Below, piece after piece: positions 9,001-40,500 of a DNA stretch of 64,000 nt (position 1 is the stretch's first letter; each line of letters opens with the position of its first letter). Under the pieces are notes generated by a model. The model saw nothing but the letters and a program-made list of their open reading frames with translations. It was not told the DNA's origin and made no database searches. Location: assembly GCA_032158295.1 (NCBI GenBank), contig CM063243.1, positions 5,030,948 through 5,094,947 on the forward strand, written 5' to 3'. A program made the position numbers and the translations under genes. The stretch comes from Pycnopodia helianthoides (taxonomy: Eukaryota; Echinodermata; Asteroidea; Forcipulatida; Asteriidae).

Positions 9001-12000
9001 CATCTATGAAGCCTCGTTGTATGATACTTTTCACCAGAGATGTGTATTGAGACAGTTGCGACAACTTGCAATTAGAAGCAATTTTCGGTAACCCCCCCCC
9101 CCCAAAAAAAATACACATGTGCACAAAGAGGGTGCCAGACTATAGACTGCACATTGGGTTGTGCTACATTTGGTATACGGTCCACATTGGCATTACTCCG
9201 TAGGCAGGGTACTACGTTTTTATACTTTGTCTCTTTTTTTCTCTCAATACAAATGATAATCTAATTGCGTGTATAACATTGGGTTATGGCATGCCATCGG
9301 ACAGTAATTAAATCGTTGATCAAATTGAATCATAATATTAATTACATTGTGGGTAAATTTGTTATTGTCCAAGAGCACTCTTCAGGATATTTCCAAGGAT
9401 TTCACCAACAAAATAATCATGGTCAACCATGACATTGAAACGAGTTTTCAGTTAAGAGACTAATTACTGTTGATAGCTGCTGAGCAGGCTGTGCCATGCA
9501 TTGCCATGGTGAATCTCTCCCAAGGGAATGCGCTGTTAAAGACAAATCCCTTCTTCTGCATGTAATCTACTTCAACCTTGCGTCGCAACTTTATTATAAC
9601 GTTGAACATTAGGGATTATTTCCATTTTCTATATTCTACAAGCACGTTAAACTGTATATAGAGTTGACTGTGTAAGATGGCAAAAATTGATGTCTATAGA
9701 AATTATGGACCCCAAAAAATAAATGCAGTTACCCTTATGATATAGAAGTGGCTTCTTATAAACTGCTCAAATCCACCACTCAATGAGGTATGTTTCATTG
9801 AAGGTTATGGATATTTCCATTTGTTATACTCTACATACATATTAAACTGTATAGTGTTGACTGTTTACGATTGCAGAAATATATGTCTTTAGAAATTATG
9901 GACAAAACAAAAATGAAGTGACCTTTATAATAATATAGTTGTGGCTTCTTATAAACTGCTCAAATCCACCACTCAATGAGGTATGTTTCATATAAAGTTA
10001 GGGATATTTATTGATACGCAATAAAAAAAATATAATTATAACAAAAGTGTATTATGTTGACTGTCCGTAGAACTCTGTTATATCATAACCGCGACTTGCT
10101 TGCACAACATAACTGAAACTAAAGTTGAATCAAACGCTGCCAATGAAACCCAAATGTTATTTCTGTCTTACCGGTTACCGATTACGTTTTGTAGCTTTAA
10201 CATTTATGTGACGCTTTCTAGCTTAGCGGGCTGATATAAGAAGTATTTAAGGGAATTGTCCATTTGATGGTACAAGCATGGAGGTAGAAAACCTATGCCC
10301 TACCTCCATGGTACAAGCAAGGAGTTTGAAATATATTCAGAGTATGTCATGAGAAATATATTTGGCTGTTTGTACTATTGCAGATTTGAATTTAGCGAAA
10401 AAAAGGTAGGTAGAAGCAATTTTCTAAATTGTCAAATGGTTCATCTTTATTTGTGCGAAGGACAATTCTGAGATGGTCCTATTGTCACAACCTTAGTACA
10501 AGTTTGTTTCTGTATTAGATAGCACGGCAACGCACCCTAAAACCATCCTTGTTTATTAAATGGAATTTAGCGACACCTGTAAGCCAATAGCATGATCCGA
10601 AAACCTCACATTGATGCGTTTAAAGCCAATAGAAGCTAGGGCGGGGGGGGCGTACCCTCTGCCCCCATATCGGGCATGGTAGGGCCTGTAACTTTACTGT
10701 GATATATGAATGGTGCCCGCCTTAACGTTAATCATTTGTGTTTTGTAAAGTGTGATGCGGGACTGGGTACCAGACACTTCTTTGAGCAGATACAAGAGCC
10801 TCCCCAGAAGTTGATGCTGATTGGTCCAGCGTGTTCTCCCGCTGCGCAGGCCGTGGCTCAAACATCATTCTACTGGAATCTCATCACGGTAAACTGTGTT
10901 CATTTTTAAGAGTGGGTGTTCGGTACTACTGTGCGGGTGGCGGTTTTCTTTCTGCAGCATGCTTCGTCAATACAGTCAACAGTTAAGAAAAAGGCTGTTC
11001 TTCCCTATCCCTTAACTGTTTACTCCATAGCCGGCATGTGCTGCAGAACAAAAATTTGCGTGCGGGTGCACTCTAAAAACTCCCAGGTACGAATTTACCC
11101 GGATTCCGGATCCCTTTGGGCCCGACCCATTTCTGGGTCAACATGACCCGGAATTTGTATCAAAATGACTCAGAAATAGCTCAAACTGACGCAGAATCCA
11201 ATTCAAAAACGTACTTTTTGACCAGTTTCCGGTTCAGCCTGACGCGGAAGCTAATCAGGCCCCTGAGACATAGGCCCTTTTCGAATTCACGGCTTCGGCT
11301 CCTAAATCGGCTCAGGCTAAAATAGGCTCCCTCAATTATTTTAACTTACGCATGCTTTGCGGCCAGGGCTTCAGACAAGAAAACTGGGCCTGAAGCCCAA
11401 TCCGGAGCCGAAGCCGTGGATTCAAAAAGGGCCCAAGAATTCGGGTCAATTCTTACCCGGGAGTTTTTAGAGAGTGCGTGGGGGTGTTTTACTTCAACCT
11501 GAGTCTTTACCGTGTGATGATTCGGGAGCATATCGAAATAGAAAGTTGACATTCGCTGTTACAAAGCCATGCGAATATCCAATCTCCAATAACGAAATAA
11601 CAAATTAGACATTCGCTTTACAAGCCTATGTGAATAAACAATGTCCAATAGCGAAATTACAGAGAAGACATTCACTGTACAAACCTATATATGAATATCC
11701 AATCTCCAATAACGAAATAACAAAGCAGACATTCGCTGTACAAACCTACATGAACATCTAATCTCTAATAACGAAATAACAAAGCAGACATTCGCTGTAC
11801 AAACCTATATGAATATCCAATCTCTAATAACGAAATAACAAAGCAGACATTCGCTGTACAAACCTATATGAATATCGAATTTCTAATAACGAAATAACAA
11901 AGCAGACATTCTCTGTACAAACCTCGGTGAAAATCCAACGTCCAATACCGAACTAGTAATTCGCTTTTGTTGCTATTGCAGATGTCTTACTCGGCAGCCT

Positions 12001-15000
12001 CCTCGGCTCTGTCCAACCGTGTGGTGTTTCCGTACTTCTACCGCACCTACGTGCCGGATACTATGCTGAACAGAGCTCGGATGCGCATCATTCGAAATTT
12101 CGGCTGGAAGCGAGTTGCAACGATTAATGAGAACCATGATCTTTTTTCACTGGTTAGTACATTTTTTTTGTGTAGAGCGCATATAAAGAGCTTAAAAAAA
12201 AACCTGTTTTCTTAATACTAATATTGTATAAAATATTTAATGGCCTGCCTAAGGTGCATTATTTCTGAAATTATACGTCAATTTTTTTTCGTCTTTAGGC
12301 AATCAATGATATGATCAACCTCTTGAAGGCTGATAACATCACCGTCATATCTTCAGAGTCATTTGATGAAGATCCATCCAATCAAATTGCAAATCTCAAG
12401 GTACGGTATAAATTTATGGCCGTCTCATGGCCGAGCGATTAAGAAAACCGGACTCAAGCTCTGGTGTTTCTGATCAGCAGAGTGTGGGTTCGAGTCCCGG
12501 TCGTGACACTTGTGTCCTTGAGCAAGATAATTTACCACAAATGCCTTGTCATTCGGGACATTAAGTTGTAGGTCCCGTGCACTACGATTGGCAGTGCACG
12601 TAAAAGAACCTAGAACGCTTATCGTGGAAGAAAAGGGGTTAACCCAGATGTTTCTAGTTCACATAGCAAGCACCCTCGTTTACTGTTCACAGGTATCCTC
12701 AGGCTTGCGAGCTACAGTGATTTAAGTTCACTTATGAGGTATCCTTTGTTTCATTACCAGAAATATATCATAATACAAATAGTTATAATCATTAATTGGT
12801 ACACAATTTGATGATTAGTACTCTACCTGATTAAAATAAAACAATCGTTTTTAATTACTAATCCCAAGGTCATCGCCAAAAGACACATTTTCTCATTTCC
12901 ATGCATGATTTCACCTTCCAATGACAACCTATGAGTGGCAGAAAACCGGTCGAACTTTCAAGCTCAGTTTTCTTGAAACACAATTTCCACACATCAAGTG
13001 GTTACGCCCCTAATCTCGGTAACTTGTTTTTGTTACGTCCACCTATCGGGCACACGACGTAGTTTCAAACGTAATAATCATTCCAGATTTGCAAGGCATG
13101 TTTCCTCTGTTGTACAAAATGGCTTTGTGAGCGGTCGAAGGAATTGATTGACTTTGAAGATCGTCCCTTCTTGTTTTTTATTTTTTCGTTCACATGCCTT
13201 TGACTATGTATAGGGCAAAAATAATAATTACTTTTCCTGATAGAAAAAAAGTTCATGCCACAAACCTAATTTGAAACTGGACTTCCCATCAGAGACCGGT
13301 TCAAAAGAGCGTCAATAAGTTAGGAAAAACCGAACTCCAGCGTCACGCGTCCTTGGTCGGCTGATTTCAGTTGATTAAGGAAGCAATCCCTCGGCCTTTT
13401 TTCAAGCCCAATTTGTCGAGCCTGTCTTTCGTTAATGAATTGCTCGTACCGATTAGAGTTACCAGCCGCTTACCGAATAAAATGAAAAATGTTTCGTATT
13501 GATGATTGTATGACCCGTAGGCCCCTGTTAGGAATTGCGAGCAGTGCGTCACTGCCTTTTTGTTGTCATATGACGGTAAAGTAAATGTTATAAGTCAATT
13601 CCGAAAATCTACTCCGCGGTAGTAAAATGAATAGTAAGACAAGTTCTCTAAAGAACAAAATCTACACAGCAAAGTAGATATTTGTACACATGGTGTTACC
13701 GCAAACCGAATATATATCAATTCGACATGTTCAAATTTTGTATTAAGCATCGGTATGAAGTAGCAAGGGTTTTTGAATAAACCAAACATCTTGATTCAAT
13801 TGTGAGTTTTGTAATAATTCACCTCAAAAAAACATGACTATTCCTACGTTATTTTTCAGGCGTTAGCTTCACCTTGGCAAACGTCTTGACTGTTCCATTT
13901 ATTCATGGGTTCACACTTGAAATGGAACAGTCCAAATGCTAAGACCCCCCCCCCTCAATACACTACAAGGCCCTCCCCCATGTTTTGGCGTCCATCGCTG
14001 CAAAAACTGGGGTGTTAAAATTGACACCATGGGTGTTGTCACATATTATCGATACCCAAGAAAGAATCAACATTAACATCTAAGGGTGTAAAAATAACAC
14101 TCATGTAGCTGTATTGGCAGAAATTAGTGTTATTTTAACACCACAATGAGGTAAGATGTGATTCCTTTTTAGGTATCTACAACACCCACGGGGTCAATTT
14201 TACCACCCCAGTGTTAGTAGTGACCTCACATTATATTCATAATACTATATAACTAGTTAAAATCATTTCTGCATCTGACCTTCACAATCTAATACTTTCT
14301 CTTGTGTGTTTATTTCACAGCTTTTGGATGCACACGTAATCATAAGCAACACCTACGAGAGCAAAGCAAGACGCATTTTCTGTGAGGTAAGCTTTGTACA
14401 CGTATCTTATTCTTATTCTTATTCTTTATTTGGCCATTAAATACACACAAACAGTCAGTAAGTAACAAAATGAATAAATAAGTCCGTATTTAAGTAAACA
14501 CAAGCAATAAGTAATGATCGCAAAACAACAAAATTAAAAGCACATGAAGTCTACAAAACAACCTTAATGTGATGGCCAGGATCAACAAAAGTATACTTAA
14601 ACACTGTAGCTCGAAAGCCTGTTGACCCAGTCACATAAGGAGACAATACACTAATAAAAATATCTATATATGAAGAGATAATTTAAATAATTATAGAATA
14701 TGTAAATACACAAAACACAATGTGATAAACTAAATAAATTGACTTTGAATAAAAGTAAGAAAATTTGAAAAGAGACAAACATTATTAAATTATTTAAAAC
14801 AAATACAATAAAAATAAAGATAAATAAACAAATAGAAACGATAAAAATATTGTACATAATAAAAAAAACAAATCATTTTAACAAGCTAAGGGGTAAAGAA
14901 AAACATGTATATAAATAAATAAGAGAAACTAAATATAAATATGAATAGTAAACTTGCGGGTACAACCATGAGTAAAATGTCTCTTTTGAAGGAGTGGTGG

Positions 15001-18000
15001 CTCTGAAAAGAGACGGTTTGGTATTTATATTTATATAAATAAATAGATGAATAAATAGCTGAAGAAATCCAGACAACAATAAAACAAATAAAATGAATCA
15101 ATCAGTCGAAAATAAATGAACAAAAGGATTAGCAACAACAAAAACAACAACAACAATGGATAAATGAGTTGAATGAATGTAATGAAAGGAAATGGGAACT
15201 CATGGTGTTTATCAAAACAAATGGATGGTTGCAGAATACTGTAGGAGATGAACAAGTCTTTAAAAAAAATCTAATTAGCATCTAGATTGTAATAGTAAGC
15301 AGATAGTTTCTTACAAAAAACATTCAAAGTGTCCAGAATAAGAGAGTCTTTTATGTGTGAAGGCAAGTTGCTCCATAACCGAGGAAATGAATGAATTGGT
15401 GTGTACTTGAGAGCTTGAGTTCTGGCATAGTGATGGTGAAATGTAGTCAAGTCTAAATGGCGGGTGTTGATGTTTGTGTTACACTTGATGGCATCGCAGT
15501 CAATAAGTCCAAACAAAGATTTGATGGTGAAAATGATGATGTGCTGTTGTCTCCTGTTAGCAAGGCTCATCCAGTTGAGTGTTCTTAAACGTTCCTTATA
15601 AGGCATTTCTCTTCGCTGTTGCTTCAAGCACATTCTGCTTGCCCTGCGTTGCACACCTTCCAACTTTGCTGATAATGTGGCAGTGTATGGGTACCAGGCA
15701 GGTAACCCATACTGCAAGACAGGCAGAACTAAGGCAGTATAAAGGCACCTGAGGGCATGTGAGGATGACCCCCCAGCAATCTGCCATATGAAACCAAGAG
15801 TTTTGTTTGCTTTGGACACAACCAAATTTACATGATCATTCCAATTTAGCTTGTTATTAACAGTTATCCCAAGGTACTTATACGAAGAAACAACACCAAG
15901 GGCATTACCTTGCAGTGTGTAATGTGGAAGATGCTCGTCCGTGGGTGTTTTGCAGCGAGACAAATGCATCACTTTGGATTTTTGTTTGTTGATCTTCATA
16001 CCATTAGCTATGCTCCATTGACTGAGCGTTGTAAGGTCAGACTGTAGAGCATGTTCGTCAGCGGGAGATTTGATTGGCTTGTAAATGAGGGTGTCGTCAG
16101 CAAAAAGTAGAGAAGTTGCAGATATATTTTTTGAAATATCACTTATAAAGAGGTTGAAGAGAAGCGGACCAAGGACACTTCCCTGGGGAACTCCAGATGT
16201 GACTGGTGCCCAAGAAGAGACGCTTCCACGGTATGTAACTCGCTGCTGTCTATCAGTGAGAAATGATTTCAGCCAGATCCATGTGGGGCCACGAATGTTA
16301 AAGTTATGAGCCAATTTATTGAGAAGAATGTGGTGAGGCATGAGGTCAAAAGCCTTGCTGAAGTCAAGGAAGATGATGTCAAGTCGAGGTGGGTGTGGCT
16401 TATCGAGAATAGTTGCCCAGTCATGGGTTGCATTGATGAGTTGGGTAACACATGATTTCTTAGCTGTGAAACCATGTTGTTTATCATTACCCAAACATAA
16501 TGAGTTTACATGCTTATTAATGTTCTCGGCTATAGCTCTTTCTAACACCTTGCCAACTACTGATGTTAAAGCAACAGGTCGATAGTTAGTAATGCAGTTG
16601 CGACTGCCGGCTTTGAACACAGGGGTGATTTGAGAGAGTTTCCAATTCTTAGGAACAGATCCTTTACCAAGTGATGAATTCATCAGTCGCAGTAGCGGTG
16701 GAGCAAGTGGAGTTTTTGCAGCTTGAAGAATTGATGTTGAGATTGAGTCTGGACCAGGTGCCTTGTGAGATGACAACGAGGATAAAGCCTTTGTCAACCA
16801 TTCCAAGGTAACTTTAAATTCAGGCATCTCAGGTATTGGTAGGGAACATGACGGAGCAGTCTCTGGGCACATTGCAGCTGGAGAATGGACAGAGGTGAAA
16901 AAGTCATTGAAGGCTTGGGCGATCTCACCTGGCTTATGGATGAGACTACCAGCAGACTGGAAAGCAGCAGGGCATTTGGACTTTCTTTGATCACGAACAA
17001 AGCGCCAAAAGCTTCGCTTGTTGTCAGATGCAGCAAATAAATGATTGACATATTTCCAATATGACGATTTTGTCAAGTTCTTCACTTTGTTCCTTATTTG
17101 TTTGTAATGCAGCCAGGTAGATGGAGAGTTTACTCTTTTTGCTTTGGTAAACAGAGTGTGTTTTAGTGAGATGAGTTTTTTAAGTTCTGCATTTATCCAA
17201 GGGGATGATTTGCGATGACAATTCGACCGTGGGATGCTATCTCGAACAGCTGCATCAAGGATGTCATTAAATCCTTCCCAAGAGGCATTAGGATCCTCAT
17301 CATCCAAGAATGCAGACCACGGTGCAAGATGTAACAGTTGCTGTAGATGATCAAAGTCAGCTTTCTTGTACTGAAGAAAAGAACGAACAACATTTGGTTG
17401 TGGTGAAGCTCGAGCTGCACAAAAAGTGAAGTATACTGCGTGGTGATCGCTACTAACTGGGTTAGCAAAAGACGTAACGTTAGTGAATTTCTCTTGTCGA
17501 TTAGTAAAGATAAGGTCGATTGTGGTTCCATCCAGGGAGGAGTTGTTTGAAGGGCGAGTTACATCCTGAACTAACTGTTCAAGACTCATGGAGTCAGTTA
17601 TTTCTTGAAGACTTACTAAGGAAGTAGACTCCGTTTGCCAGTTTATATTAAAATCTCCCGTCAGAATACAGCCTTCAAAATTATGAAGTTCCGGTTGAAT
17701 AGCATCACATGTGTCTTGTAATTTGTTGAAGAAAGTTATGTCAGAGTTTGGAGGCCTGTAGATGATTCCAACTAGCCATTTGGAGCTTTTGATGGTCATA
17801 GATAGCCATATCATTTCAATGTCTACAGGGTCAAAGATCTTCAGATGAATTGGGAGTAGAGTATCATTGACGATGGCCATAATACCACCACCATGACTGT
17901 CACGATCACGCCGAAAAGAAGAATATCCAGACAAACAAGGAGATATTAAGTCAGTGTCATTAGCTGACATCCATGTCTCAGTGACACAAACAATATCAAT

Positions 18001-21000
18001 GGGATGGAGTTCAAGGAATGCTAGTAGATTGTGCTGTTTGTTACGGATGCTTCTGGCATTCAAGAGGAGCCCAGATAAAGAGTTCTGTGGTAAGTTACCA
18101 GAGTTCAAAATCCGGTCTTTGGGCAAATCAAATGATGAAGGAATTTGAGGTGATGAGTCAACAAAAATATCCCGGAATGAAGTGTCACTACATGATGAGA
18201 ATGCCAAAGATGCAAGGGAAGTGCAGACAGGACAAAACCAGTCAGTTGTACTAGATATCAACAACGTGTACTGAGCAATTGACATCTCTGGTATGCATTT
18301 TTGATGCCAAAACACATTGCAGTCCTCACAGAGTATTGATCTTTGGTTACATTTCACTGGTCTTCTACACTTGCCACACGGATCCTTAATGGGTCCTGGG
18401 TTGAGCTCTACATCTCCAGAAACAGCCAGTGGAAGGTTGAATGTAGCTGTAGAGTTGGCATAGTAAGTTACAGGAGCTCTGCCAAACTTACTGTGCTTTT
18501 GGAGTCTGAGTCTGGTATTGATGTTAGTAGTCCATGTTGGATTTATTAGAGACAGGTTGTTGTACAGTGTTGCTAGGTGATAACAAAGGCTGGCAGGCTC
18601 ATGACAATGAGGTCGATCAGGCATGCTCTGAATGTAGCATCTAGCTTGTGAATTAGGCTGAAGATGGAGAGAGTTTGCAGAGTAAAATCCACTCCAAATG
18701 GAATTTATCTGAGCAGCAAATCTCTGATTTGAGTGACCAGATAGATCAGCAAGTAATCCTCTATCATGTAATGTAATCTGGAGACTTCTGTGGGGCCTGT
18801 AGACAGGAACATTTGTAACAAGGATCAGAGCACAAAACAGAGCTTGCAGACTGAACGCCATCGTTGCTATCGTTTTTTATCGTATCAAGCACTTTACTTC
18901 ACTTAAATCATCCTAATTGTATAAAGAATACACAAAGCCCATGTTGGTCTCTTCCAAATTTCATGCTTGTACAAAATGTCATGCTTATTTTCTTATTTTT
19001 GTCTGCCTCCATTACGAAATCACTGAAACCATATTAAATTTATCATTTTTTAAATATTTATTTTGAATTACCGAAAAAAAGAGGTAATTTGTTACTGTTT
19101 GTGTATTTGGGCAAAAAATAGTTAATGGCCTGACGTTTCGAATCTAACAGACTCTTTCCCGAAGGCTAAACGACAACAGAACACGCACAAACAAGTGAAA
19201 TGAAAATACAGGCAGAAAAATACATAAGTAGACTTTTATAGGAGCAGTCAAACGGAACGAAATGAAAAGAGAGAGGCAGAAAGCACACAGAAAAAAAAGT
19301 TTTTTTTCTGGGTGTGTTCTTTTTTCTTAGGGTCGAAACAAAACGTAACAATTTGTTTGCATTTAAGCCATAGGTCATATTAGTTGGTAGGCAAATTGCA
19401 ACGGCTAATTCTATTGTCCCTTTTGATATTTTCGTCATTCCATTTTTCCTCTTAAAAAACAAACAAACAAAAAACAACCATAAATTTACCGTCATCCCCC
19501 GTTTACTAGGCCTGGAAGCAGGGGTTGACCGGCCCCGGTTACGTGTGGTTCGTAGTCGGCTGGTGGAGTTATCGTTGGTGGACATTCGATGACGATTGGG
19601 CTGGGAAGTGCACCCACGAGGAGATCGTCCGCGCCGTGGAGAGCTCCTTCTACATAGCTACTGAAAGCGTCGTCTTTGGGAAAGACACCGTCAAAACAGT
19701 TGCTGGAATTGTACGTCAATGTTTTGGATTCCCCCCCTCAAATTATTGGTTTGAAAAATATTTTTTCAATGAAAATCTTTCTCTTTTAATTTACAGATTC
19801 GTTTTAGTATGCTAGACTTATCTTAGTATTGTACATTCCTGTAATAGCACACTTTTACCATCACCTTGTTTTATATTGTATAATTTTTTTTAGTAAAGAC
19901 AAAAGAATCCGGTTTCAAAAGGGAAAAAATTAATTGCGCTTTAGTTTGTTTTTGCTGTCATTAAAAGGTTACACGACTCGGTTTGTCGCTAATGCTGCCC
20001 ACTCAAGATAATTTTTATTAAAATATTATTATTATGTATTTCTGATAATGAAACCAAGGATGCCTCGTAAGTGAGCTTAATCACTGTAGCTCGCAAGCCC
20101 GAGGAAACCTGTAAACAAGGGTGGCTGCTATGTGAGCCAGAAACACCGGGGTTAGCACCTATACTCCTCCACGACAAGCGTTCGGGATTCTTTTGCGTGC
20201 ACTACCAATCTTAGTACACGGGACCTACGGCTTAATGTCCTATCTAAAGGAAAAAGCAGTTATGGTAGAGTAGTTTTGCTCTAGGTCACAAGTACCACGG
20301 CCCTCTGCTGATCAGAAACACTGGAACTTGACTCCGGTGCTCTTAACCACTTGGCCACGACACGCCACAAATCCGTTTACTTATTTTGTGTTTTCTTGCT
20401 TTCTTTTTAGAGATAATATAAAACATTACGTGCTTCATATATGCTATGTCTAGTGAGCCCCTCTTCTTAGTAAAAAACCTAATATATTTCTGTGAAAATG
20501 TCCCTCAGACTCCGTCGGAATTCGACCATGAGCTTCGGCATAGACTGTCCCTCCCGCGGTATGAGAACTACACCTACAATGGAATAGCGACGTACGGCTA
20601 CGACGCAGCGTGGGCCATCGCACTCGCTCTCAACCGGTCTGCTGAGGTGAGTTTTTGTTCTTCCCGAGTGCCGAATGTATAACAAGGAGACTCAAAGATC
20701 ACCAGTTGTGTGCTTTCAGCGATTTCTAAAGTCCGCGCAGGTCACAATGACTCTCCCGGATGGTTCATTGTGGGGGGAAATGGAAGAGCACTTAAATTTA
20801 GCGTTTGTGGTTGCTATGAGACGAGTTAGATTTGTCATATTCAAACTCAACCACCCATTACGCTTCAGATAATAATTGTACAAAAAACGAACAAATAAGG
20901 CAAAATAGGCCCAAATGGAAATTTCTCGTTTTAGCATAGCCACTCATTGCATAGTACAAACAGAGTGAATGTGCTGATTGTGTTGAAAGTTCAACCTTCT

Positions 21001-22667
21001 GAATAGGTGCATGCTTTGGGTTTACATTTGGTACAGCGATGAGGCTACATTTATTACAGTGTTTTGGCTGCAGGTTTGGGTTAAGAGTTGGGACCACACT
21101 AGTGTAACATGGTGGGGTTATAACTAGTACAATTCAGGGACTACATTGGGCACGATGTTGTGGTTCCTTTTTAGGTATAAAGGTAATATGTTTGGGCTAC
21201 AATTAGGCGCATGCATGGTTTGGGTTTACATTTAGTACAACGACGAGGCTACAATTAGTGTAATAATTAGAATTGTAGGTTTGGGTCCACATTTAGGTAA
21301 AATGATGGCAGTTTATTTTTGGGCTGGGCTACATGAAGGTTCAAGATGGCGGTTCGATTTTGCTTGGGCTACATTAAGGTACAATGATGGCGGTTTGTTT
21401 TTTGGCTGCTGGGCTGCATTGAGGTACCTTGATGGTAGTTCATTTTGGGCCGGGCTACAGTTAGGTCCCGGATAAAGGCCCCCCATAATCGTGTATAAGT
21501 TCTCAACTTGAACTCTCTTCTCCTCCTCCAGATTCTTAGGACCAAACGGTTTCAAGATGGAAGTATCCGCAGATTAGAAGATTTCACCTACGACGACAAG
21601 GAAATGAGTCAACTGTTTTTTGATGCTGTTGACAAAACCAATTTCTACGGTGCATCGGTAGGACCAAATAGAGTTTTGGAATTTGATTTAGAATTGAATC
21701 GGCAGTCTGTTATTGAATAGTTGTTATCAACTCCCATAACTATGGGTGGAAGACTCAATTTAGCTTTGGACTTGCCATACCACTAGTATTAAAATGACGG
21801 GAATCTTTTGTGGGCGGGCAACGGGGGTAGGGTTCCAGGGATGGTCTTGACAGTTTGGGTATATTATATTCTTTATTTTTGCCGCAGTCATTGCTTGCAA
21901 CCCCCCTTGAGCCTGCAGTATCTCGGTCGCCTATTGGTAAAATATCTGCTTTAGAATGTATCGTTGGTTGGAATCCCTAGTATTTTGTTCTTGCGGGTCT
22001 CAGAAAAACATGAGTTCATTGTATATCATCCATGTATAGGGTAAAACCAAATCGTGTGTTATAATAAGTTATAAGGAAATCAGCAATTTGTTAAGACTTC
22101 ACAGCTCCGATTTTCCCAAAACTGTTGAAACATTTTGAAGCAGTGTATAGGCCTATCCGACGTAATCTAGAAGAGTTAAACTTTGGTAGCCCTGAAAAGA
22201 GAGTTGTTGTTTGCACTCAACGTTTCGACTAGTGTGCTTCAGTTGTCTTCATAGACTTTCAGAATCACTACCTCTTACATTATTTGTGATATTGTAACCT
22301 TGAGCTTTCAAAAAGTATTTCTCCAGCATAAAAAGCCTCAAATTCTACACGTGTCATTTGGGTATACAAAGTATTTGTTTTTATTTCTTGTTCTTGACTC
22401 TTGGAAACCGTTTAAAAAACATATATCTCTTGTTTGTCTGTCTGCTTGATTGATTTATTTATTGAAAATGATCTATCTCAATTGATTTTTCGAAAGGGAA
22501 ATATAACATTTCCCCTTTTCAGGAATGAAAAATTTGACTCGAGTACTCTTGTTTAAAAAAAGTGAATAATCATTATACCTTCATAAACATGTACATTTTT
22601 TTTTAGGGTCCAGTGAGCTTTCTTGGAGCTGACCGTATTTCTGTTACGCAGATTGAGCAACTAAAAG
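1..22667 (+). CDS. Gene 1 exons 1-9: Venus-flytrap ligand-binding domain
   Basis: Nine exons encode most of the extracellular bilobed domain. Recognisable family blocks: ALDHINED and YELKMVWSDT (exon 1), GPACSPAAQAVAQ and FYWNLIT (exon 2), SYSAASSALSN and GWKRVATI (exon 3), SSESFDEDP (exon 4), YESKARRIFCE (exon 5), GYVWFVVGWW (exon 6), YGYDAAWAIALALN (exon 7), RRLEDFTYDD (exon 8), and SFLGADRISVTQIEQLK (exon 9), which matches the strand of mammalian GABA-B subunits ending IEQLQ or KFTQFQ. The introns between exons 1 and 9 are all phase 0; the one after exon 9 is phase 1. By eye, some GABA-contact positions of GABBR1 are kept (the Tyr of TYES) and others are not (His after FFRT is Tyr; the Glu before the YDxxW block is Ala). 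A 4.5 kb LINE sits in the exon 5-6 intron. Confidence 0.88.
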
Positions 22668-25600
22668 GTCAATACAAAATACTTTCATCTATTACAACAA
22701 ATCCGGTATAGCATGGCTTACACAAGACAAACAGAAAACCTAAGAACTTCCAGGTCAGGATCGACCCGGTTCCGGGTCTCCAGGTCTGACCCATTTATGA
22801 GTCAGTGTGACCTGGAATTTGTGTCAAAATGACCGAAAAACGGGTCAGATTGACGCAGAAACTGAGCTGAGCTGTTCAAGCAATGAGGCGCTCTTGTTTG
22901 TTTAGCTGTCATTTTGGTTTGGCCTAGTCGTTGTGTACACATTTCTGGCTGTCATGCTACGCTGCAAAGCAAACACGCTTTGCTTTAAAATTGTCTCCAT
23001 CCAGCCCCGCCCTCCACGGCAGCATTTTACCGTCTCAGCCCCCACAGGGTGCCATGCAGACACCTGGGTTAAGAGAAGCTACTTATGGTTAAACGCCTTG
23101 AGGACACAGGTGTCGTAAGCAGGATAAGTAAACGTACTCTCAGACAAGCACTAGTTATAATAGCTAGAGATAAATACATGCATTATCAATTTTTTTATAT
23201 AAAATAAATTAAAAGACGAAGAACAATCAGAAACGATATCAGGAGACTTTAACGGACAAACTGTTAGTTTATACAAAATATTGAACTAAATTCACCTATA
23301 TTTTAATTGTCTGGGGTCCACGGCGCACGGTAGTTTAATAGAAGGGAGGAAAAGTAATTGGTGTTTCCACGGAGCAGGTGGAAATGAAGGATTCCCGACG
23401 GGATTTTAGCCGGATATACGTGTCCTTTTTCCAATTTCCTATAATGTGTACTTAGGAAATGTTCACCGAATATGCCCGCTGTAATCTTCACGTATTATTT
23501 TATGCAAAGATGTTTTCCCTATGGAGTACCTACGATATGATCAAACTTCCCTTTACAAAGCCCCACCTCAAAGATAATCCGCTGTGATAGTGAGTTCATA
23601 CTTATGCATTTTATATTCATAAACATTCTAACTCGAAGTGATCGGACTTGGCGACGCACTTGAGCCGACGTCAGGTTTATTTTCGTTGTTGATACTTCTG
23701 GATTAGTGAGATTTGGTTGTTAGTATGAAGTGATCTTTCTTAGCAAGTAAAGTGGGAGTTTATGGTTAAATTTTGATTTGAATACTGCAAAGGTATATTG
23801 TACTTTTAGTGTGTTGACCGTGCGAATCTCTTAATGCAGCGGAAGACCTTTAGTGTAAACCAATAAATAAGTAAAACGTTAGCCACAGGCCTCTAAAATA
23901 GCCCAGCCCTAAATGTAGCCAGAGATCCAACTATGGCCAAACTCTGTGCCTAAATGTAACCGTGCTACAGCGTTAGGGTTACATTTAGGGACCCATTCAG
24001 GTGCATGGTGCAGGCTACATTTGATGCCGCACCGTTGACGCACCTGAGCTTAGAAATAAAGATAGTTAAGACTATCACAAACAATTCTTAGAAGGGAACG
24101 CACACAGCAAAACCAATATTAGTAAAACAAAAAACACTCACAATTGTCAAATTGAACGTGATTTGTTTTTTTGCAAACCTGAGTTTGTTTTGTACGAAAG
24201 TGTTTGAATTGTAAGACTAACGTATATATTTTTTTCTCTGTTTTGTCAAACGTAAGTTGGTTGTTGGCCACACTGGGTGCAATACAACGATGCGTGTTAT
24301 CTGTTCGTTGACCTCCCAAACACCGGCGACAAAGCGGCAAAGTACTGCAGTGAAAATGACGCGAGCGAGCTGGCGGCAGTCAGCAGTCCCGCCCATCTTG
24401 ATTTCCTCACTCAAACCTTGAGGGAATCCAAGTTTAATGACACGAAGTGGTAAGGGAGCTCTTTACGCAATGATTTATTTGTAACAGTTCCGCATTATTT
24501 GATAGTACAAAATGAAAAATACAAAATAATGTTAAATATCTGTTGAGTGACAAGATATTGAGTTTTTACGCTGGAGTAAACATACAAATATAAATATTTA
24601 TAACCACATGGAAATTTACCTTACGCATATGACGTCATTTGAGTAGGGCGCTCTCGCCTAGAGCTCGACAAATGTGAGATGTTCATTGGCCAATCCTGTG
24701 CGACGCGCGTAAAAAATTGTGCGTTTCCATTGTTCAACGTCGGTTTACCTCTAAAATTGTGGCTTGATGACGTCAATGCATAAGGTCTATGCATCCTCGT
24801 ATCAAGAGCAGAGCTTGGAAGCACTCAAAGAACGTGAGTCCATGACCCCCATGCACTGGCCGCCATCGCCGAGGGCAAACAATGGAAACGCGCAAGCGTG
24901 TACTCGCGGCACACTACTGTCAGCCAATGATATGTCTTCACTGACCTCAGTGAGGGCACTGTTTGGGCCAATGACGTCATATACATTGGGGGGGGGTCTA
25001 TACGCAATGGTTTTCATGTTAGGAATATCAGTGAATCAAACTGTTATCCAATTTGGTTGTTTACGAGTTATTATTCTATGGATTTATAAGAAGTACTTCT
25101 TTTACACACACGAGTCGAAATTACAGGAGTTTTCAAAGTTTGAAATCAGACCTCGTGAATAAAAAAACTAATTTCCCCCTACTTCACTAGGCTTGTCCAA
25201 ATGACGGGAAGTAACTTGAGTGACTTATGTGCTGCATTGGGATCGGTCGATGGCCACTGGGACCTCGTGGCGACTAACTGCAGTACCCCGCTTCCATTCA
25301 TTTGCCAGGATGCAGCAGGTTAGATTTTCTATAAAGCAAGAATGAAATCCCAAAGTTGTTTTCACAAGATATCGCGTTACAAAGTAAAAGGAAGAAGTAA
25401 TCACTCTGTGTTGGGGAGTTCCCTTTTTATGCCCCCTATTTGATGAACACAAAAAAAAACCTCCCAAATCCGGGGACCCAGACCCGTTTTTGGGTCAGCC
25501 TGACCCGGAAACTGGTTAAAACATGGAATTCAGTCTCAGAATGTGGGTCAATTTGACCCATTTTTGGGTCAGGCCCAATGGGATCCGGAATCCAGGTCAA

Positions 25601-28600
25601 TTTCCTGTGTTATTCCTCGTTTTTTGGTAAAGTTCCGGTTTCATATAATCTTTACTTTAGAGTTTCTATAACCTTGCCAAGTTACAGTTTGACTTTTAAA
25701 AACCCTTACTTAGTGTGTTAAAATGTAACCATTAACACATATTGAGGAAATCCATAAAGAAACAGCTTATAGCAGTTCATTAAGACACTGTACACAAATC
25801 TCACCTTTGAAACATGTTTAGAATTAAACATTTCTGATAGTCTATTTCTTAAAATCAACATTTTAATCAGTTATTTAGCTGGCTTGCTTTGATCTTTTAT
25901 TCTCTCAAACCCGAATATTATAAATGAGGATTATTTCGTTTTTTTCTTTTCTCAAGAACATTTAGAGGTTACTGTTGGTAGCTATGACACGGCTAATGAC
26001 ATACTAGTAATGGACTCTGACCTTTTCTGGCCAGGTAAGCAGGATTGACTTCCTTGTTAATATCTACTATTTTAAAATCAAGTAACGACAACATAGTGTT
26101 TTTTTCTTATTTCCAAAATTATTAGGCCAAACAATTTTTCCCAGACGCAAAATTGGTCTTTCCAAAATAACTAGACCAATTATTGGCCCAATTTTGTATC
26201 CCAGACGCAAAATTGGGGTTTCGAGGGATAAGATCAGCTCATGGTCAATTTGTTTACAACGATGGGTTTGAAAAATAAGTGTTGCAGTTGAGCATCTCAA
26301 CATCATCACTCATTGCACAACAGTCTGTAATTAAAATGCCCAATTAAATCACTCTTCCTTCAAAAGGAACAAACTGCTAACTACTCGGTCCTTCTCAGTG
26401 TTTTTCACGCCTAGTAAGCATTTACAAGCAATGTTTTTGCCTGTTGACCTTTTCGTAGGTGGCGTGGTGCCGTCGGACAAAACACCTGTTATTGTGAAAA
26501 ACAGAGTGGAGGTGTACGTCGGAATCAACTTAGAAACGTTCATCTGCTTCTTTGCACTGGCAGGGATAGGAATTTTGCTGTCGGTTGCCTTTTTAGTCTT
26601 TAATTTCAAATATCGTTCCCTGAGGTAAGTTTCTTTAGGAAGATCATCATACTAATGTCAAGCCTGTGAACACTTCATCAAATAGCCCTTATGCATGTCC
26701 CAATGCGCATGATCGGCGCGCAAAGATGTCTGGGGGACATCCGACAACACCGGCAGCCATCATGGCGCGCTAAATTTGAGGCAATGCGGTACACACTTGT
26801 AAAACCTGACTTTGTTACATGTTAACCCTAACATATTGGCACATTGGTGGGGTGCCTGAACCATTGCTGGGTCAGGGTGACCCGGAAAGTGGTTCAAAAA
26901 TAGGATTTAAACTAGGATTCTGCATAAGTTTGACCCATTTCTGGGTTATTTTCTACATCAATTCAGGGTCACACTAACCCAGAAATGGGTCACGCACCAC
27001 TGGACCCAGAATCTGGACCCTAGGGTTTTTAGAGTGAGAAAACATTGTTTATCTTTGCAACCCACACAGTTGTTTATAACAGAATTGTAAATTGAATCGA
27101 GTTTAAACTGCCTTGATGGAGTTGATGTAATTTTTTTTCCAGGATTGTACGGATGTCGAGTCCTAACCTGAATAACATCATCCTGATCGGAGCCTCCCTG
27201 GTCTACGCTTCAGTTATTATCTACGGCATCGACAGGAATCTTGTCGATGCTAAATATTTACTCTTTTGTTGTCATGTAAGTAAGATGCATTCCTTTTTGT
27301 TTCAAAAACAAAACTGTAATAATACTAGAGGTCCAACCGGGTATCGAGGTCTTAAGTTTGTCTATGTCATACAAGCTTTAAAAAGTTACATGCCTCCAAC
27401 GCTTACAAAACCCTACTGCTGAGTCATGGCACATGTTCATATTATTTTATTTCATTGTTTCTCCAAAGTGCATTGCCCTAGGGGAGTCGAAGTCCTTGGT
27501 ATGTCAGACTGGACCATTCCACAAATCTAAGAGAGGGATCGGGTCCTAGAGTTGAGTTTTTTGTTGGTGTTGGATGGACTGACAAATATTTTCACTCATA
27601 TTCTTTTTGCATACAATTGTACCTAGACAAACAGACCTACTCAGATCTAATCCTTGATAAAGTGGAGTCATCTGTTCTAGGTAGGTTTTACAGTCAAGTG
27701 ATGTTATCACGTGACTGTGTGTTTTAGACGCCATATTGCCGGTCAATGGCCAGCGGCAAGATCACAGTTCATGAACGTAACCATGACCGGCAAGATGGCT
27801 GCCGTTGCGGTAGGGGGGCCAGCGACGTCAGCTGAAAAACCTCTATAATATTAGCAGGCGTCCAGATTTTTTTCTGTGCTAGCTAGGTTCTGAGATTTCC
27901 ATCATCTCTTCCCCTGCCGATCACACTTTTGGGCTCTCTGGGGCGCCAGTTTAATTCTTGTGGAACATTCACCCTCAATAATTCATTTGGTACACCGTTA
28001 CTTGAAAGGTTCTAAGAAACATTCCAACATTAAGACCTGTCCTATTAGGTCAGCATGGTCTTCTGACTTCTAAACTCATGCAGAATCATTTCTAAGGTTA
28101 TGATGATGGTTTGTAAAGATCGAAATGGAAAAACCCCTACTTCGTTCGACATGCTCAACAACTATAAACCATCCAGTACTATTTGATCTGGCAGTTAACA
28201 TCTTCTTCAAGAAAGAAAATGGGGGTACAGTTCATTCATGTGTTTTGCACCACGTCTATGGAACCAGACCTCACAACCTTACGAACCATTCAAACTTTCA
28301 CAAAACTCTCTCAAACACACATCATGTCAAAAAAAAAAAACTATTGTTTGTTTTCTTTCTTTTGTTTACTATTTTAGAGCGCTGAGCATTATCTCTAAAC
28401 ATATCAACTTATAGTCGATATTTGGCACAAGACCTTATCATTCCAAAAACTGAATAGGTACTTGAATCTTACTATTTTGCACACACAATTTGACAATTAA
28501 GTATTAAGAGACTGACTTTTTGACCTTTTGCACCTTTTACTCAACAGTTGAGAGTGTGTTTGCTTTCCATCGGCTTCGTCTTAGCGTTTGGAGCAATGTT

Positions 28601-31600
28601 CAGTAAGACGTGGCGAGTGCATAAGGTTGTGGCCTTTAAGACCCCTAAACGAATAGTGAGTATAACTGGGTATTGACCCCTTGCACTGACGTCACACGCC
28701 GCCACTGTCTGCCCGTAGTCTGCCAATATGGGAGTCAAAATGCATGTAAGGATAGGCTGTACGCAAATTTATTTTCTGCAGCACACGTCGGCTATGGATT
28801 CAAAAGTTAAGGGATAGTGAAGAAAAGCCTATCTCTTAACTGTTGACTGTATTGACGAAGTATGCTGCAGAAAAAAAATCGCAGGCTGTGCATGTCTAAC
28901 CGAGAGTGCGTTGCCTAACATGTGCACTGCACACCGTCGACCCACCGCGAACCTGACTCCCAAAATAGCGTTACCAAGAATTATTCTCGGTGATGACGTC
29001 ATGTGATTTCGGTTATACCAAATATAAATGCCGCAATCCTATGTGGCAGGAGATTTTGTACCCCCCCCCCCCGGAGATAAGGACTGGGGACCAGTCTAAC
29101 CGGCAACAGGTATACCATGCCCGATATGGGGCAGAGGGTCCCCCACAATGTTCCCATACACTATTCTCCTCTTGTATAGAACCCCCCCCCCAAAAAAAAG
29201 AAAAATCCTCAAAAGAATTCCTGAGATTCCAAGCAGACAATGAAGACACAGTAAGGGGGGGGGTACCCTCTGCCCCATATCGAGCACCAATTGTAACTTT
29301 GGAACGATAGGCGGCAGCAGACATTTCAGGTGAACATCCCTTTTTTACAAGCGCACATTCCGAGCACCTTTTAAGTCTGCTATCGCTTGCATCCCCCATA
29401 GTCACCCATTACAGCATCAGATATCGAGTAAAGACCTTGCCCCCTTTTGTATAACTCCTGGAAGCCCCTTTTTGCAGACTACGAAACTTGACACAAAACA
29501 TGGAGTTGCAAAGTTACTGTTAGAAAGTCCAATCTCCGTGTAAAGGACCTGCTTCAGAGCAAAATAACGTATACTAAAAATAACCATTAAAATTGACTGC
29601 ATTTTTATGTTTGCCTTTCATACAATCAATTGTCCAGGTGGTGCAGGACCGACAGCTCCTGGCTATAGTGGCCGTTTTGTTTTTCATTGATGTCGCCATT
29701 TTGTTGCCATGGCAGCTCATCTTCTCTTGGCGAACAGAAATATTATTTCTTCCAGAGAAGGTACACGGAGAATCTAATCAACTCTTAATATTATGAAGTG
29801 CAACACATTTACATAAACCAATAGGCATATGAATTTTACCTAATTTGGAAGGTTCCGATAAAAATACGTGGTATGAATAAAATTTGATAGTGAGCACATT
29901 CGCTGTTATCACGGCTTAACAAAAATAAGAAACAGAACTTCAATTTAGATTACGTACTTTTTCAACTACAGGAACAAGAAACCGAGATATTGGCTCCGTT
30001 TGTAGAGTTCTGCACAGGTGATCACTTTTTGTACTGGAGCATCGCTCTCTTCTCGTTCAAGGGACTTTTGCTGATATTTGGCGCCTTCTTAGCTTGGGAA
30101 ACTCGTCAGGTTTGGTTCTTCCTCTCCCACCCCCCACCCCCTCTCTCTCGATATTTCACTCACTTTCCTATTTGTACAGTTGCAGACGTTTCAGCATTAA
30201 ATTGAATCTTACGAAAGGGTTTGAGCACTCATTTACAAACATTTAACTTTGCAAGGGTTTGTCAAAAAAAAATTAATGGTCGCATAGAATCCCCCAACTG
30301 TAATTTAGGGTAATATTTGAGAAGTAGTGCTATACAACTACACAAATAAACATAATTGTCTTTTTGAGCTTAAACTGATATAGTTTTAATTTTTTTTAAA
30401 CCCGGGCAGCGAGACCTCCCTGCAGGAGTTTCTGAGGCGTAGCATAGGTTTCGAAAATGATTTGTGGTTCTTGGAATCATTCAATTCTTATTATGTGCGT
30501 TTCATGTAGCCCAAGACCTAAATTATAGCCCCCAACCCAATTGTATCTTAAGCCCGAATCTAGGTTTAGAAAGTGGATTGCAATAAGACTGCATTTGGGC
30601 ATGCGGTTTGGGGTACATTAAAATCCGGGCTACATTTAGGTGAACGGCCCGGGCTACAGGGTCGGGCTACATTTATGTCCGGACTACCTTTACATACAAA
30701 GCTGGGGCTATATTTAGGTATGAGGTTTAGGCTACATTTAAGTCTGGGTTGCATTTGGGACGATACTTGGCCACTTGTAGGTAGACGGCTTGGGCTACAA
30801 TAAGGTGCATGGTAGGGACTACAGTACAGTCCGGGCCATATTGAAAAAGGCTGGGGCTATATTTAGGTATAAGGTTTGGGCTACAATTAGGTATAATGTT
30901 GGGGCTATAAGTCTGGGCTACATAGGAACAATGCTGGGGTCACATAAAGGTATAAGGTTTGGGCTACAATTAGGTACAAGGTCGGGGCTACATTAAAGTA
31001 CACGGCATGGCTACAAATACAATTACGTATAAGGTTGGGTCTGCATTTAAACACGGGCTACAATTAGGGGTTTCGCAGCGTCCGTTGATAACATGTGTTT
31101 TTATTTGACAATTCGAACGAATCTTCGTTATTAACTCAGGTGACGATACCCGCTTTGAATGACAGCAAGCTGATCGGCATGAGCGTCTACAACGTGTTCA
31201 TATTATGCATCGTGGGTCTTGCTATCAACCTAGTCTTGGGTCAAGACCCAGCGACACTCTTCATATTCAACTCCGCTATCTCCATATTCTGTACTACACT
31301 CACAATCCTAATCGTCTTCTTACCAAAGGTAAACTGCAATATATAATAAATATAACATGGTTTGAGGCTGGGCAATAACTATCCATGTAAGTCCTGGGGT
31401 GTCTTGGCCGAGCGGATAAGAGCACCGAAATCAAGCTCTGGTGTTTCTGTTCAGCAGAGTGTAGGTTCGAATCCCGGTTGTGAAACCTGTGTCCCTGAGC
31501 AAGACACTTTACTATAATTGCTTCTCTCCACCCAGGGGTAAATGGGTACCTGTGAGGGCAGAGATGGTTCTTGTGATTGATTTAGCTTAGTGCGCTACAT

Positions 31601-37182: not shown

Positions 37183-37509
37183 ATGGCTTTTTGTTACGGT
37201 ATTTACTTGAGTGCCATCATCGCATACTTCATAATATTATGTTGCTCCGTGATGCCAGTCTTTTCTCAGACAATTCAGACGACATCCTCACCACAACAGA
37301 CAGGCGGAGGTGGTGATGACACCCAGCCAGAAGGAAATGAGACCGCTGGAAAGATTCCATTGTATCTTGGTGGATTTTTCTCGTTAGCGGGCAGTGCATG
37401 GGATGGAAGTGGCAACCTCGTGAGCGTCAGATTGGCGCTCGAGGACGTCAACGCGCGTCCGGATGTACTTTCAGACTACGAGCTTCGTATGGTTTGGGAC
37501 GATACTGAG
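37183..37509 (+). CDS. Gene 2 exon 1: signal peptide and start of Venus-flytrap domain
   Basis: The ATG at 37183 follows AAGAAG. It opens a hydrophobic signal sequence (AIIAYFIILCCSVMPVFS), then a Thr/Gly/Asp-rich spacer, then IPLYLGGFFSLAG, the first strand of the flytrap, and LALEDVN and YELRMVWDDTE, which match the 26 codons left of gene 1 exon 1. Phase 0 donor. This shows what gene 1 lacks at the window edge. Confidence 0.88.
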
Positions 37510-40500
37510 GTAAATTAATTACTATCTTAAAAGCACATTTTAATTAAAGCAAAATTGTGTTACATATAGTTGGCGGGCTACGTTCAGGTACAGGCTCAGA
37601 TAATACATGAACGTTGAGACAACGTGTATTATTAACGTTTGCCATTAACGTTACTTTAACGTTACATATAAAACTTTGATTCGATGTAAGTTTGCTCATT
37701 GATAGAGTGTCGGAGTCAACGTTAGCAAGTGAACGTTGAAACAGCGTTACATTAACATTTAACCTGTTACTTTAGCTTCATATGTAAACGTTGATTCAAC
37801 GTTACTTTGCTCATTGATAACATGTTTAATCAACGTTAACAAGTGAACGTTGAAACATTTTTACAACTATAGTTACTTTCACGTTACATGTAACCGATGA
37901 TCCAAAAATGGCATACTACGTTCAACTCTAAGCTTTATAACGTGCAACCAACCAAAAAAACGCAAGTCCAAAATTGATATCAACAATAAACAGTCCTTAT
38001 GAAAACCTAGAACAAACTTTACTATGCAAATAGACGAACCAAGAGAACCTAGAACAAAGGTTAATTTAATGTTGTTACAGCAGCCAAAAATTTACCAACA
38101 ATAAAAACCTAAATCAACGTCGATTTAAACATTGTTTCATCAACCAAAAATGGAACAACCATAAAGACCTAAAACAATCGTTGATTAAAGGTTATAAATT
38201 GTATCAACTAGAAAACGTGACCACTGAGCTTTATTTGACAATCTCACGGATTGAATGTTTACTGTGTTTATTGAAAATTAGCTGAAGAGAAGAAATTATT
38301 TTATAAAAGGAAAAAAGAAAAGAAAAAATAATTACGTCCTTTCTCTTAACCACAGCGTTAACCTCGCTCCATGAATCACCTAGCACGATATCAGTCACAT
38401 CAACAATTAAGATACCTGCATTTTTTATTTCAAAATATTATCACCTATTTGCATACACTGTCCAGGATTGTTTAAGGACCTGAGTTGAATGGCGTACAAA
38501 GCGCAGCAGCAGAATCAATTGTGTGTTTTTATCTATCTACATTTATACATATTGGCTTCAGAAACTGTATAATATTTTCCCCAAAGGTATTATTGAAAAT
38601 AATTGAATGAGGTTTTAGTTGGATGTTGTACTTTTTATGTATAACTTAAATATGAAATCATGACAACAATACGTAAACATGACAACCGACGACTTGAAGT
38701 ATAAACCGGATGAAGATCCCAGTAGGACTATGTCTCCTAATAAAAAGCATCGTCGGCTTCGACCAACATGCAAATCATGAAATGCCAAGACAGTCTGAAG
38801 TCACCTTGAAAGCTACACAAGCAAGGACAACATCAACAAGATCACCGAACATCGTTGTGAGGGGGGTGTGGTTAAAAGAGGGGGGAGGGACTCTGCAAGG
38901 GAACGAGTAAATTCTTCTCTTACCGTTTGCAGTCTTCACACTCTTGCTTTTATCTATAAGTCCAACTTGCGTTCCGACCTCCACTATTGCGCTCCATCAA
39001 TAATCTAACATTTTCCACCATTTTGTTTTTATTTAGTCTATTTATTGTTGTTAGTTTTTTTTTCAGATATGTCAAATTGCAATGCATTTAATCGCCGGTT
39101 CTTTTTTAAGAAAAATTCATAAGAGAGAGTTGTATGCACTTTCAATTCAATTTATGTATTTATCATTTGAAAACACATGAAATTTGTTTTCCCTCGCAGC
39201 AAAAATGTCACAAACAAACCCCAAAACATGGTGTTTTTCGCAGATTTTACTAGATTGTATTTACTGCCAGTTGTTCGAGAGATTAAAAAATAAAATAAAA
39301 TATATAAAAATAATAAACAAATAGAAAAAATAAAGTCAAACTTTATTATCGGAGAGGTGAATCGCAAAAGCGAATTTAAAAAAGTGGAGGTCGGATACGG
39401 CAAAGTTACCCTTACCTTGGTCCTTTGGCGACCTCTAATGTATGCGAGAGCAGACAAAACACATTACACATACCACATATCCATAGATCTTCATCTCTCA
39501 TCTGGTCACAGTCTCTTGAAAGTCCTCAGCACAGAGATTTTCCTTCTACCTGCGTCTCACGAAACAGTCCTATCAATGTCTCTTGAAGCTTGGCTGGACC
39601 CGGGAGCTCGCTACCACTACCAGCTGCTGGGTCTGCCTCAGGTCGTTCCCCGTCCTGGTCTAAAACAGCTTACAGCTACCTCAGTCGTTCCCCGTCTCTG
39701 ACTTTAGAAAACAACCCAAAATACAATGCTACAGTCTAAGTACGAGGGGAAGTGTATCATTGTGGTTAATTAGGTCTAGGTATTGTTCAAAGCCTTACCC
39801 TAACAAGATGTCACTTGAAGTATGTTTTGAGGTCATGAAGTTTTACACTGATGTCTCTGATGATCCCAGCCACTTGCTTTTAGAATCCTCAGTCAGAAGT
39901 AGAGAGGATCTAGGAATTCGCGATATTAAAAGGGTTCAACGGTGAATTTTGTTTTGATTACACTGCAGTTTCCAATAACAACTGCTTGGCCACTGACAAC
40001 AAAGCACATGGTTTAAGCTTTCTTCATATCTTGGTCAAGCCGTTAGATAAAGAATATCACACAGTTGGTCCTGATAGTGCACCAGTTATTGTTGACATAT
40101 ATTTCTGAATGCACATGATTGTCCAGTGTTGATTAGTTTACAAAGTTCATCAGAAAACGCGACGTCCATCTCAATGGCCCACGTTAGAGCCGTCCATTGC
40201 ATGCTCTCTAGTCTACAACAGCCCAATCTGAACGCACGTATTCGCCGCAATGAGTGCTTCGAAAACAGTACAAAACTCTTTATTTGCATAACAATAAAGA
40301 TCTTATATAAGGTGACATTCCACAGTAATCACCGATCCAAGGATTAAACTTGTCGAGTAAAAAAGTCTCAATCCAGGATGGTTTGATTTGTTTATTCCAG
40401 GGCAAGAACAAAATGGCGAGAAGTAGAATGAAAAAAAGGTCTCCTAAGGGAGCAAAGTACTCTCCGGACATGATTTTTGTCACCCCCTGTTTTATATTCG

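Follow-up and report, generated by a model that had tools for sequence, protein, structure and literature searches.

How could a GABA-B-type receptor carry a C-type-lectin-like domain (CTLD) not in front of or behind its Venus flytrap, but inside it? The question is raised by a 64,000-nucleotide stretch of the 479-Mb genome of the sea star Pycnopodia helianthoides (GenBank assembly GCA_032158295.1, contig CM063243.1, here C1, positions 5,030,948 to 5,094,947 of the forward strand; the whole stretch is referred to as the window), in which an earlier note, made from the letters alone, had described a receptor gene (gene 1) with such a domain between two strands of its flytrap. Judged by its sequence, the insert of gene 1 is a CTLD, and the same layout recurs at the identical junction in a family of receptors from echinoderms and hemichordates. 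Gene models were read by splice logic in the raw genomic DNA (AG/GT borders, one open frame); the parts of gene 1 that matter here are, in window positions:

2..32746, + strand: gene 1, a GABA-B-like class C receptor; 20 exons in the window, forming a splice-consistent chain with an open frame to the stop at 32746
22607..22667, + strand: exon 9, last flytrap strand before the insert, GPVSFLGADRISVTQIEQLK; donor phase 1
24257..24449, + strand: exon 10, first part of the CTLD with 3 Cys; phase 1 in, phase 2 out
25191..25318, + strand: exon 11, second part of the CTLD with 3 Cys and CSTPLPFIC; phase 2 in, phase 1 out
25957..26034, + strand: exon 12, flytrap strand after the insert, EHLEVTVGSYDTANDI
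26459..31328, + strand: exons 13-18, linker and seven-transmembrane domain (7tm_3 match in the relative P0002)

The exon order given by the earlier note for 22607-26034 was borne out: exon 9 ends on IEQLK, exon 12 resumes the flytrap, and exons 10 and 11, with AG/GT borders, contribute 193 + 128 = 321 nt, that is 107 residues, in between. This cassette is flanked by a phase 1 intron on each side and divided by a phase 2 intron that splits a Trp codon. With the cassette, the protein reads ...IEQLK-VGCWPHW...PFICQDAAE-HLEVTVG; without exons 10 and 11 it would read IEQLK-E-HLEVTVG, the frame remaining intact. Exon 1 starts upstream of the window (adjoining piece L016) and there provides the Met, a hydrophobic leader and the N-terminus KIPLYLGGFFALPGGGWDGSG.

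Is the insert indeed a CTLD? The protein encoded by exons 10 and 11 matched the Pfam profile Lectin_C (PF00059) in two stretches with 31.5 bits, above the cut-off of 22.6 (E 3.3e-7), in agreement with the assignment proposed before; the lack of a profile match, which the earlier note had named as a refutation, thus did not occur. Among PDB sequences it matched agglucetin (3e-9) over residues 1-68, i.e., with its N-terminal part, and with that part also DEC-205, the phospholipase A2 receptor and LOX-1; a profile of 10 inserts of the family covered whole solved CTLDs (CD23/FcepsilonRII, 4e-22; aggrecan, 7e-22). In the 32 inserts collected, the six CTLD cysteine positions are occupied by Cys in 32, 31, 31, 31, 32, and 32 cases, the six-cysteine pattern of long-form CTLDs such as snaclecs, DEC-205, LOX-1, and CD23, with which the inserts also share conserved Trp positions and the full-length profile match. 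They differ from these proteins in having a GPCR (G-protein-coupled receptor) flytrap as host, in the absence of a complete sugar/Ca2+ motif from all inserts and, in gene 1 and its tandem paralogue gene 2, in a shortened loop. Gene 1 itself has the six cysteines and the CSTPLPFIC ending, but where the earlier note saw a WIGL-like motif it reads WLVQ (WLIG in gene 2, WFIGL in several relatives).

The structure of the host flytrap was assessed on the Patiria relative P0002, which is 64% identical to gene 1. GABA-B receptors are its best solved relatives, and they align in two blocks (55-441 and 561-924) that leave out the insert and whose inner ends correspond to residues 394 and 398 of chain 9jr0_A. 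An AlphaFold2 model of P0002, calculated on 37 sequences, has pLDDT values (predicted local distance difference test) mostly >90 in the flytrap and, by blocks, of 84-92 in the CTLD over 441-500 and 541-560. It superposes on the human GBR1 flytrap 4mr7_A over 405/407 residues (1.9 A, 37% identity) and on GBR2 4f12_A over 406/410 residues (2.0 A), which is the GABA-B flytrap fold, and because of this overlay the insert can be placed between strand 432-441 and strand 556-566. In the model of this relative, then, the flytrap still folds as in GABA-B receptors and the CTLD is predicted to be an extra domain on it. A structure search with the model returned 50 rows, all of them flytrap-type chains and none a CTLD, which carries no weight against the CTLD fold. 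As to the lobe, the part after the third crossover belongs to the membrane-proximal lobe 2 (LB2) in LIVBP and mGluR1. Since the strand pair that brackets the insert follows the third crossover, and in keeping with a passage of PMC7411975 that refers to the C-terminus of LB2, the insert probably sits in lobe 2, and not within lobe 1 as had been stated in the earlier note.

The position between two consecutive flytrap strands is shared widely, which upholds the idea of a nested domain: an insert of 89-152 residues occurs at the identical junction in 30 of 55 homologues or, with genes 1 and 2, in 32/57 rows. The insert-bearing homologues come from 12 named species of sea stars, a brittle star, urchins, sea cucumbers, and acorn worms (Asterias rubens, Asterias amurensis, Patiria, Acanthaster, Amphiura, Lytechinus, Diadema, Holothuria, Apostichopus, Ptychodera, Glandiceps, and Saccoglossus). 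In the remaining 25, the turn is plain, the region is absent or the protein is only distantly related; the crinoid row P0052 is without an insert. PF00059 was met only in Ambulacraria, both in a search with a hemichordate region (5 matches) and with a 37-row profile (41 matches at 1e-200), but as these searches scored limited candidate sets, absence of the layout elsewhere is not thereby established.

When did the domain enter? A tree of 55 rows was built with the CTLD columns removed, human GBR1 and GBR2 added, and P0048 (too short) and P0053-P0055 left out. In it, a single ambulacrarian group with support 100/100 unites the 31 rows that have the CTLD with 8 Amphiura rows that lack it; the outgroup comprises 16 rows, with 0-2 residues at the insert site. 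Amphiura filiformis has these eight copies (P0023, P0024, P0025, P0026, P0027, P0029, P0030, and P0035) in two groups within the CTLD clade, as natural deletions of the cassette. An approximately unbiased (AU) test rejected the 31 CTLD rows alone as a clade (p-AU 0.021), which favors nested loss of the domain. Three label changes are needed on the tree, two of them forced by starred branches; the root was not inferred, so gain and loss were told apart by parsimony and outgroups. Read in this way, a single gain before Ambulacraria radiated, followed by two losses in brittle stars, would be the simplest history. Two cautions apply to the tree itself, namely that the long branches of P0052 and human GBR2 meet, and that some residues of transmembrane segment 2 (TM2) in the gene 2 row are wrong because exon 14 of this gene was taken as it stands.

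What kind of receptor hosts the CTLD? In a set of 37 of the 55 homologues (A1), ANF_receptor is present in 37/37 and 7tm_3 in 36/37, the combination of flytrap and seven-transmembrane domain that defines class C GPCRs, and with GABA-B receptors as nearest solved relatives of P0002 the GABA-B-type assignment stood. PF00059 matches 24/37 members of this set at E 0.01, and alignment assigns an insert to 29/37. The two halves of the receptor resemble different subunits: the P0002 flytrap scores 261 bits against human GBR1 vs 193 against GBR2, the transmembrane part 266 bits against human GBR2 vs 197 against human GBR1. With GBR1 (GABBR1), the CTLD receptors share the flytrap fold and the pocket equivalents of W65 (22/25 aligned rows), S130 (26/27 aligned), Y250 (30/32), and W278 (31/32); the W65 equivalent of gene 1 itself lies upstream of the window. 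Unlike GBR1, they are without H170 (0/30 aligned), mostly without E349 (2/32), and have a GBR2-like transmembrane part, the inserted CTLD and a tree branch of their own; S153 is mostly lost as well (9/30 aligned). H170 and E349 of GBR1 contact GABA (pocket residue roles from part of PMC7997371), and the 7 GBR1 rows keep both, as they do all seven pocket residues. GBR2 rows differ from the CTLD receptors in another way, having H170, Y250, and E349 in none of 6 and W278 in 1/6, with S130 kept in 5/6. With H170 lost and E349 mostly so, this residue comparison makes GABA an improbable ligand of the CTLD-bearing receptors, and it was rejected as a candidate; a pocket seems to be present that is tuned to something other than GABA. 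In the transmembrane part, the likeness to GBR2 (GABBR2) extends to S515 (30/32), R577 (29/29 aligned), and L686 (30/30 aligned), residues typical of the coupling subunit (roles from part of PMC8222003), of which GBR1 rows have R577 in 3/7 and L686 in 1/7. Human GBR2 and the Pycnopodia copy on C15, unlike the CTLD receptors, are without the insert; GBR2 also differs in the second intracellular loop (ICL2). One chain thus combines a GBR1-like flytrap with a GBR2-like core.

The inserted domain has changed faster than the flytrap part that precedes it. In 15/15 pairs, which were selected and are not independent, identity is lower in the CTLD than in the flytrap part before it; between gene 1 and Patiria P0002 it amounts to 45% in the CTLD, 75% in the flytrap before it and 39% in the C-terminal tail. 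Between genes 1 and 2, the CTLD has a dN/dS of 0.40, compared with 0.10 for the flytrap part preceding it and 0.32 for a TM1 piece of 33 codons; dS is saturated, and it reaches infinity in the flytrap part that follows the cassette. As far as these comparisons go, the CTLD seems constrained as a fold and freer elsewhere, a pattern compatible with a recognition module that keeps pace with its changing partners, but also with weak constraint.

The reading that we regard as probable is that of a separate GABA-B-like lineage of class C GPCRs in Ambulacraria, with a shuffled CTLD cassette in a flytrap turn that acts as a recognition module; the CTLD-bearing proteins are best read as an orphan two-module class C GPCR whose function we infer. 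Before the split of echinoderms and hemichordates, exon shuffling would have put a two-exon, phase 1-1 CTLD cassette into the turn that links one flytrap strand to the next, close to the flytrap C-terminus, an origin to which the exon phases, the identical junction and the tree all point. The flytrap would bind an amino-acid-like small ligand other than GABA and would drive the GBR2-type transmembrane domain. The CTLD, on the probably membrane-proximal lobe, may bind a protein or other macromolecule on a neighboring cell, a microbe, the matrix or a partner subunit, and such binding might place or gate the receptor. In GABA-B activation, the LB2 lobes approach each other (as described in parts of PMC7411975 and PMC4977154), and a partner held by the CTLD near the flytrap C-terminus could favor or block this approach. 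We infer a recognition role for the CTLD, with a protein as a more likely partner than a sugar and a purely structural role as the main rival.

Several observations weigh against this reading or loosen parts of it. Pfam leaves the CTLD unflagged in 10/30 insert-bearing homologues, and in P0002 at E 0.01, so that these copies must have diverged; inserts without a flag, including P0002, were assigned by alignment and cysteines. Two brittle-star lineages would have lost the domain, on the simplest reading outlined above. The ICL2 residues of GBR2 are not kept in the CTLD rows (M587 0/32, with Pro in 26/32; K590 2/32; GBR2 rows themselves have Met587 in 1/6 and K590 in 6/6), and Gi coupling may differ for that reason. 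Superposition on the GABBR2 ectodomain, which the earlier note had recommended for the spliced protein, succeeded for the relative P0002 (rather than gene 1) with both GBR1 and GBR2 flytraps, but CTLD confidence is lower at 501-540 (pLDDT 66-75, and <50 at 502-504). The pTM of this model (predicted template modeling score) is 0.60, which leaves the relative placing of the domains uncertain, and the probable assignment to lobe 2 derives from the topology of LIVBP and mGluR1 and from the literature. Fast change of the CTLD is no proof of a recognition role either, since the C-terminal tail and the TM1 segment are fast, too.

The recognition reading can be taken a step further, to a two-sensor family in which the flytrap responds to a non-GABA amino-acid-like ligand and a fast-changing CTLD in the moving lobe reads a protein or microbial partner and gates the same transmembrane domain, and in which tandem expansion has produced a chemosensory or immune-sensing set in sea stars. 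This wider proposal is put forward tentatively; we think it may well be incorrect in part or as a whole.

The strongest competitor of a recognition module, though in our view an unlikely one, is a CTLD without a ligand of its own: packed against the linker or the partner subunit, it would be a structural piece that sets the resting state or the choice of dimer. Because the LB2 lobes meet on activation, according to the parts of PMC7411975 and PMC4977154 already referred to, a module close to the C-terminal end of the flytrap would be in a good position to block or brace their contact. Moreover, in genes 1 and 2 and the nearest asteroid relatives the insert is short and is missing much of the loop that longer members possess. 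It is mostly fold-type residues that are kept, however, and the rest of the domain changes fast (0.40 vs 0.10 in dN/dS, at saturated dS), a pattern that one would expect less from a fixed internal contact.

It is improbable that the CTLD is a true Ca2+-dependent sugar-binding lectin through which the receptor is tethered to glycans. EPN or QPD together with WND are the Ca2+/sugar-binding motifs of C-type lectins. Both halves occur together in 0/32 inserts, and single halves are nearly absent (QPD 0/32; EPN 1/32, in P0051; WND 1/32, in P0032, where it falls in the first helix segment as judged by eye). The CTLD fold as such speaks for this possibility, as does the longer loop region in many hemichordate, brittle-star, and sea-cucumber inserts, but in terms of motifs the insert does not resemble the classical Ca2+-dependent lectins that bind sugars. 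With no full motif in 32 inserts, this was rejected as lead reading.

Slightly less probable still is an optional cassette, with exons 10 and 11 mostly skipped and a plain GABA-B-like protein as the working receptor. Skipping of a 321-nt, phase 1-1 unit would be frame-silent, and CTLD-less relatives do exist in brittle stars; yet the insert is present in each of the 7 asteroid proteins in the set of 55, a CTLD-less near-twin was not among them, and 32 rows retain the domain with nearly all its cysteines and, for genes 1 and 2, a dN/dS <1. That a CTLD gene or exon pair was misjoined into a receptor gene by annotation or assembly is very improbable and was rejected: CTLD exons are common in this genome (at least 150 PF00059 matches scored), but the junction follows splice logic in raw DNA, and it recurs in four genes of this genome as well as in the proteins of 12 named species.

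How new is a CTLD nested in a GABA-B-like flytrap? Added ectodomain modules as such are familiar from GPCRs, e.g., the Cys-rich domain of mGluR/CaSR, the Cache-EGF module of GPR158, and the class B Lectin_C group (from parts of PMC12716839 and PMC8687355). In the parts concerned, PMC12716839 (2025) gives only ANF for GABA-B receptors, and Table 1 of PMC8687355 lists Sushi + ANF for GABA_B and Lectin_C only in the class B group; a nested module is described in neither. The class C add-ons named in these sources precede or follow the flytrap, whereas the CTLD is nested inside and kept across echinoderms and hemichordates. This distribution implies survival of the layout for hundreds of millions of years, considering that the echinoderm ancestor has been dated to 589.7 Mya (in the relevant part of PMC7351957). 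Among GABA-B subunits, GBR1a offers the closest parallel for an extra ectodomain module (sushi, PF00084 in P0041). Its sushi domains precede the flytrap and have a role in localization; the CTLD differs in being nested within. A literature search, with most subscription papers outside its reach, found no published description of a CTLD in a GABA-B-like receptor, which accords with the earlier note's view that no receptor of this layout had been described, but the relatives are public in NCBI under names such as 'GABA-B receptor subunit 1/2-like' or 'uncharacterized', and PF00059 is already flagged in 20/30 insert-bearing homologues. The family has thus been unnoticed rather than unseen. Many ambulacrarian genes named 'GABA-B receptor subunit 1/2-like' are probably not GABA receptors. 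The layout may allow one receptor to sense two kinds of signal, and it provides a natural test of the load that a flytrap can carry and of GPCR control by a second input near the transmembrane domain, with the cassette-less brittle-star copies as ready-made controls.

Gene 1 is not alone in its genome. Its tandem paralogue has the same layout and groups with Asterias rubens P0003 in the tree:

37183..62339, + strand: gene 2, 3' end approximate
53650..53710, + strand: exon 9, GPVSFFGADRIAVTKIEQLR
54687..54879, + strand: exon 10, first part of the CTLD, phases 1 and 2
55429..55562, + strand: exon 11, second part of the CTLD, phases 2 and 1
56138..56215, + strand: exon 12, flytrap strand after the insert, QYREVQVGLFDTASDV
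57466..57597, + strand: exon 14 (TM2), 1 base shorter than its gene 1 counterpart, frame broken

The frame break in exon 14 may reflect a pseudogene, an allele or an assembly error. Over its first 49 bases this exon matches gene 1 exactly, as though by gene conversion. Directly upstream of gene 1, gene 0 (L049, C1:5005000-5014999) is a third member of the tandem array and, among six queries, is nearest to Asterias amurensis P0004; gene 3 is found on C1 as well, ~11.5 Mb away. Both have the same CTLD cassette, and intron phases 1-2-1 are common to genes 0, 1, 2, and 3. Plain turns without a CTLD match were found in L050, a GBR2-like gene on C15 (HKQLQ-GD-VEMKVAEYYAV, in one exon), and in L051, which is GABA-B-like and lies on C13; L052 (C20) was too fragmentary for the junction to be read. 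A transmembrane query gave at least 98 exon matches at E 0.001 (150/183 candidates scored), many on C13, C20, C9, C15, and C19, so GABA-B-like genes are expanded in this genome; presence or absence of the CTLD was read in genes 0-3, L050, and L051. A search of the same genome with the CTLD of the window yielded five matches, of which three fall in genes 1 and 2, one in gene 3 and one on C16; gene 0 was missed. The C16 match (L013, C16:16075556-16075777) is weak (31%, E 1e-3).

Three further observations concern gene 1 outside its insert. Its cytoplasmic tail (32510-32746) has a Cys-rich motif, CGVWCCGIMCGC, with the A1 majority consensus GCGxWCxGxxCGC, which is possibly lipidated. Intron 5 harbors a LINE-type (long interspersed nuclear element) sequence at 15274-18876 on the - strand, with a 1201-codon open frame and matches to endonuclease and reverse transcriptase; a PHD-finger match in the same frame is below cut-off. 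Intron 1 contains a minisatellite at ~2693-2990 with the 20-base unit agcgccacggcaaaaccaaa, identified by eye.

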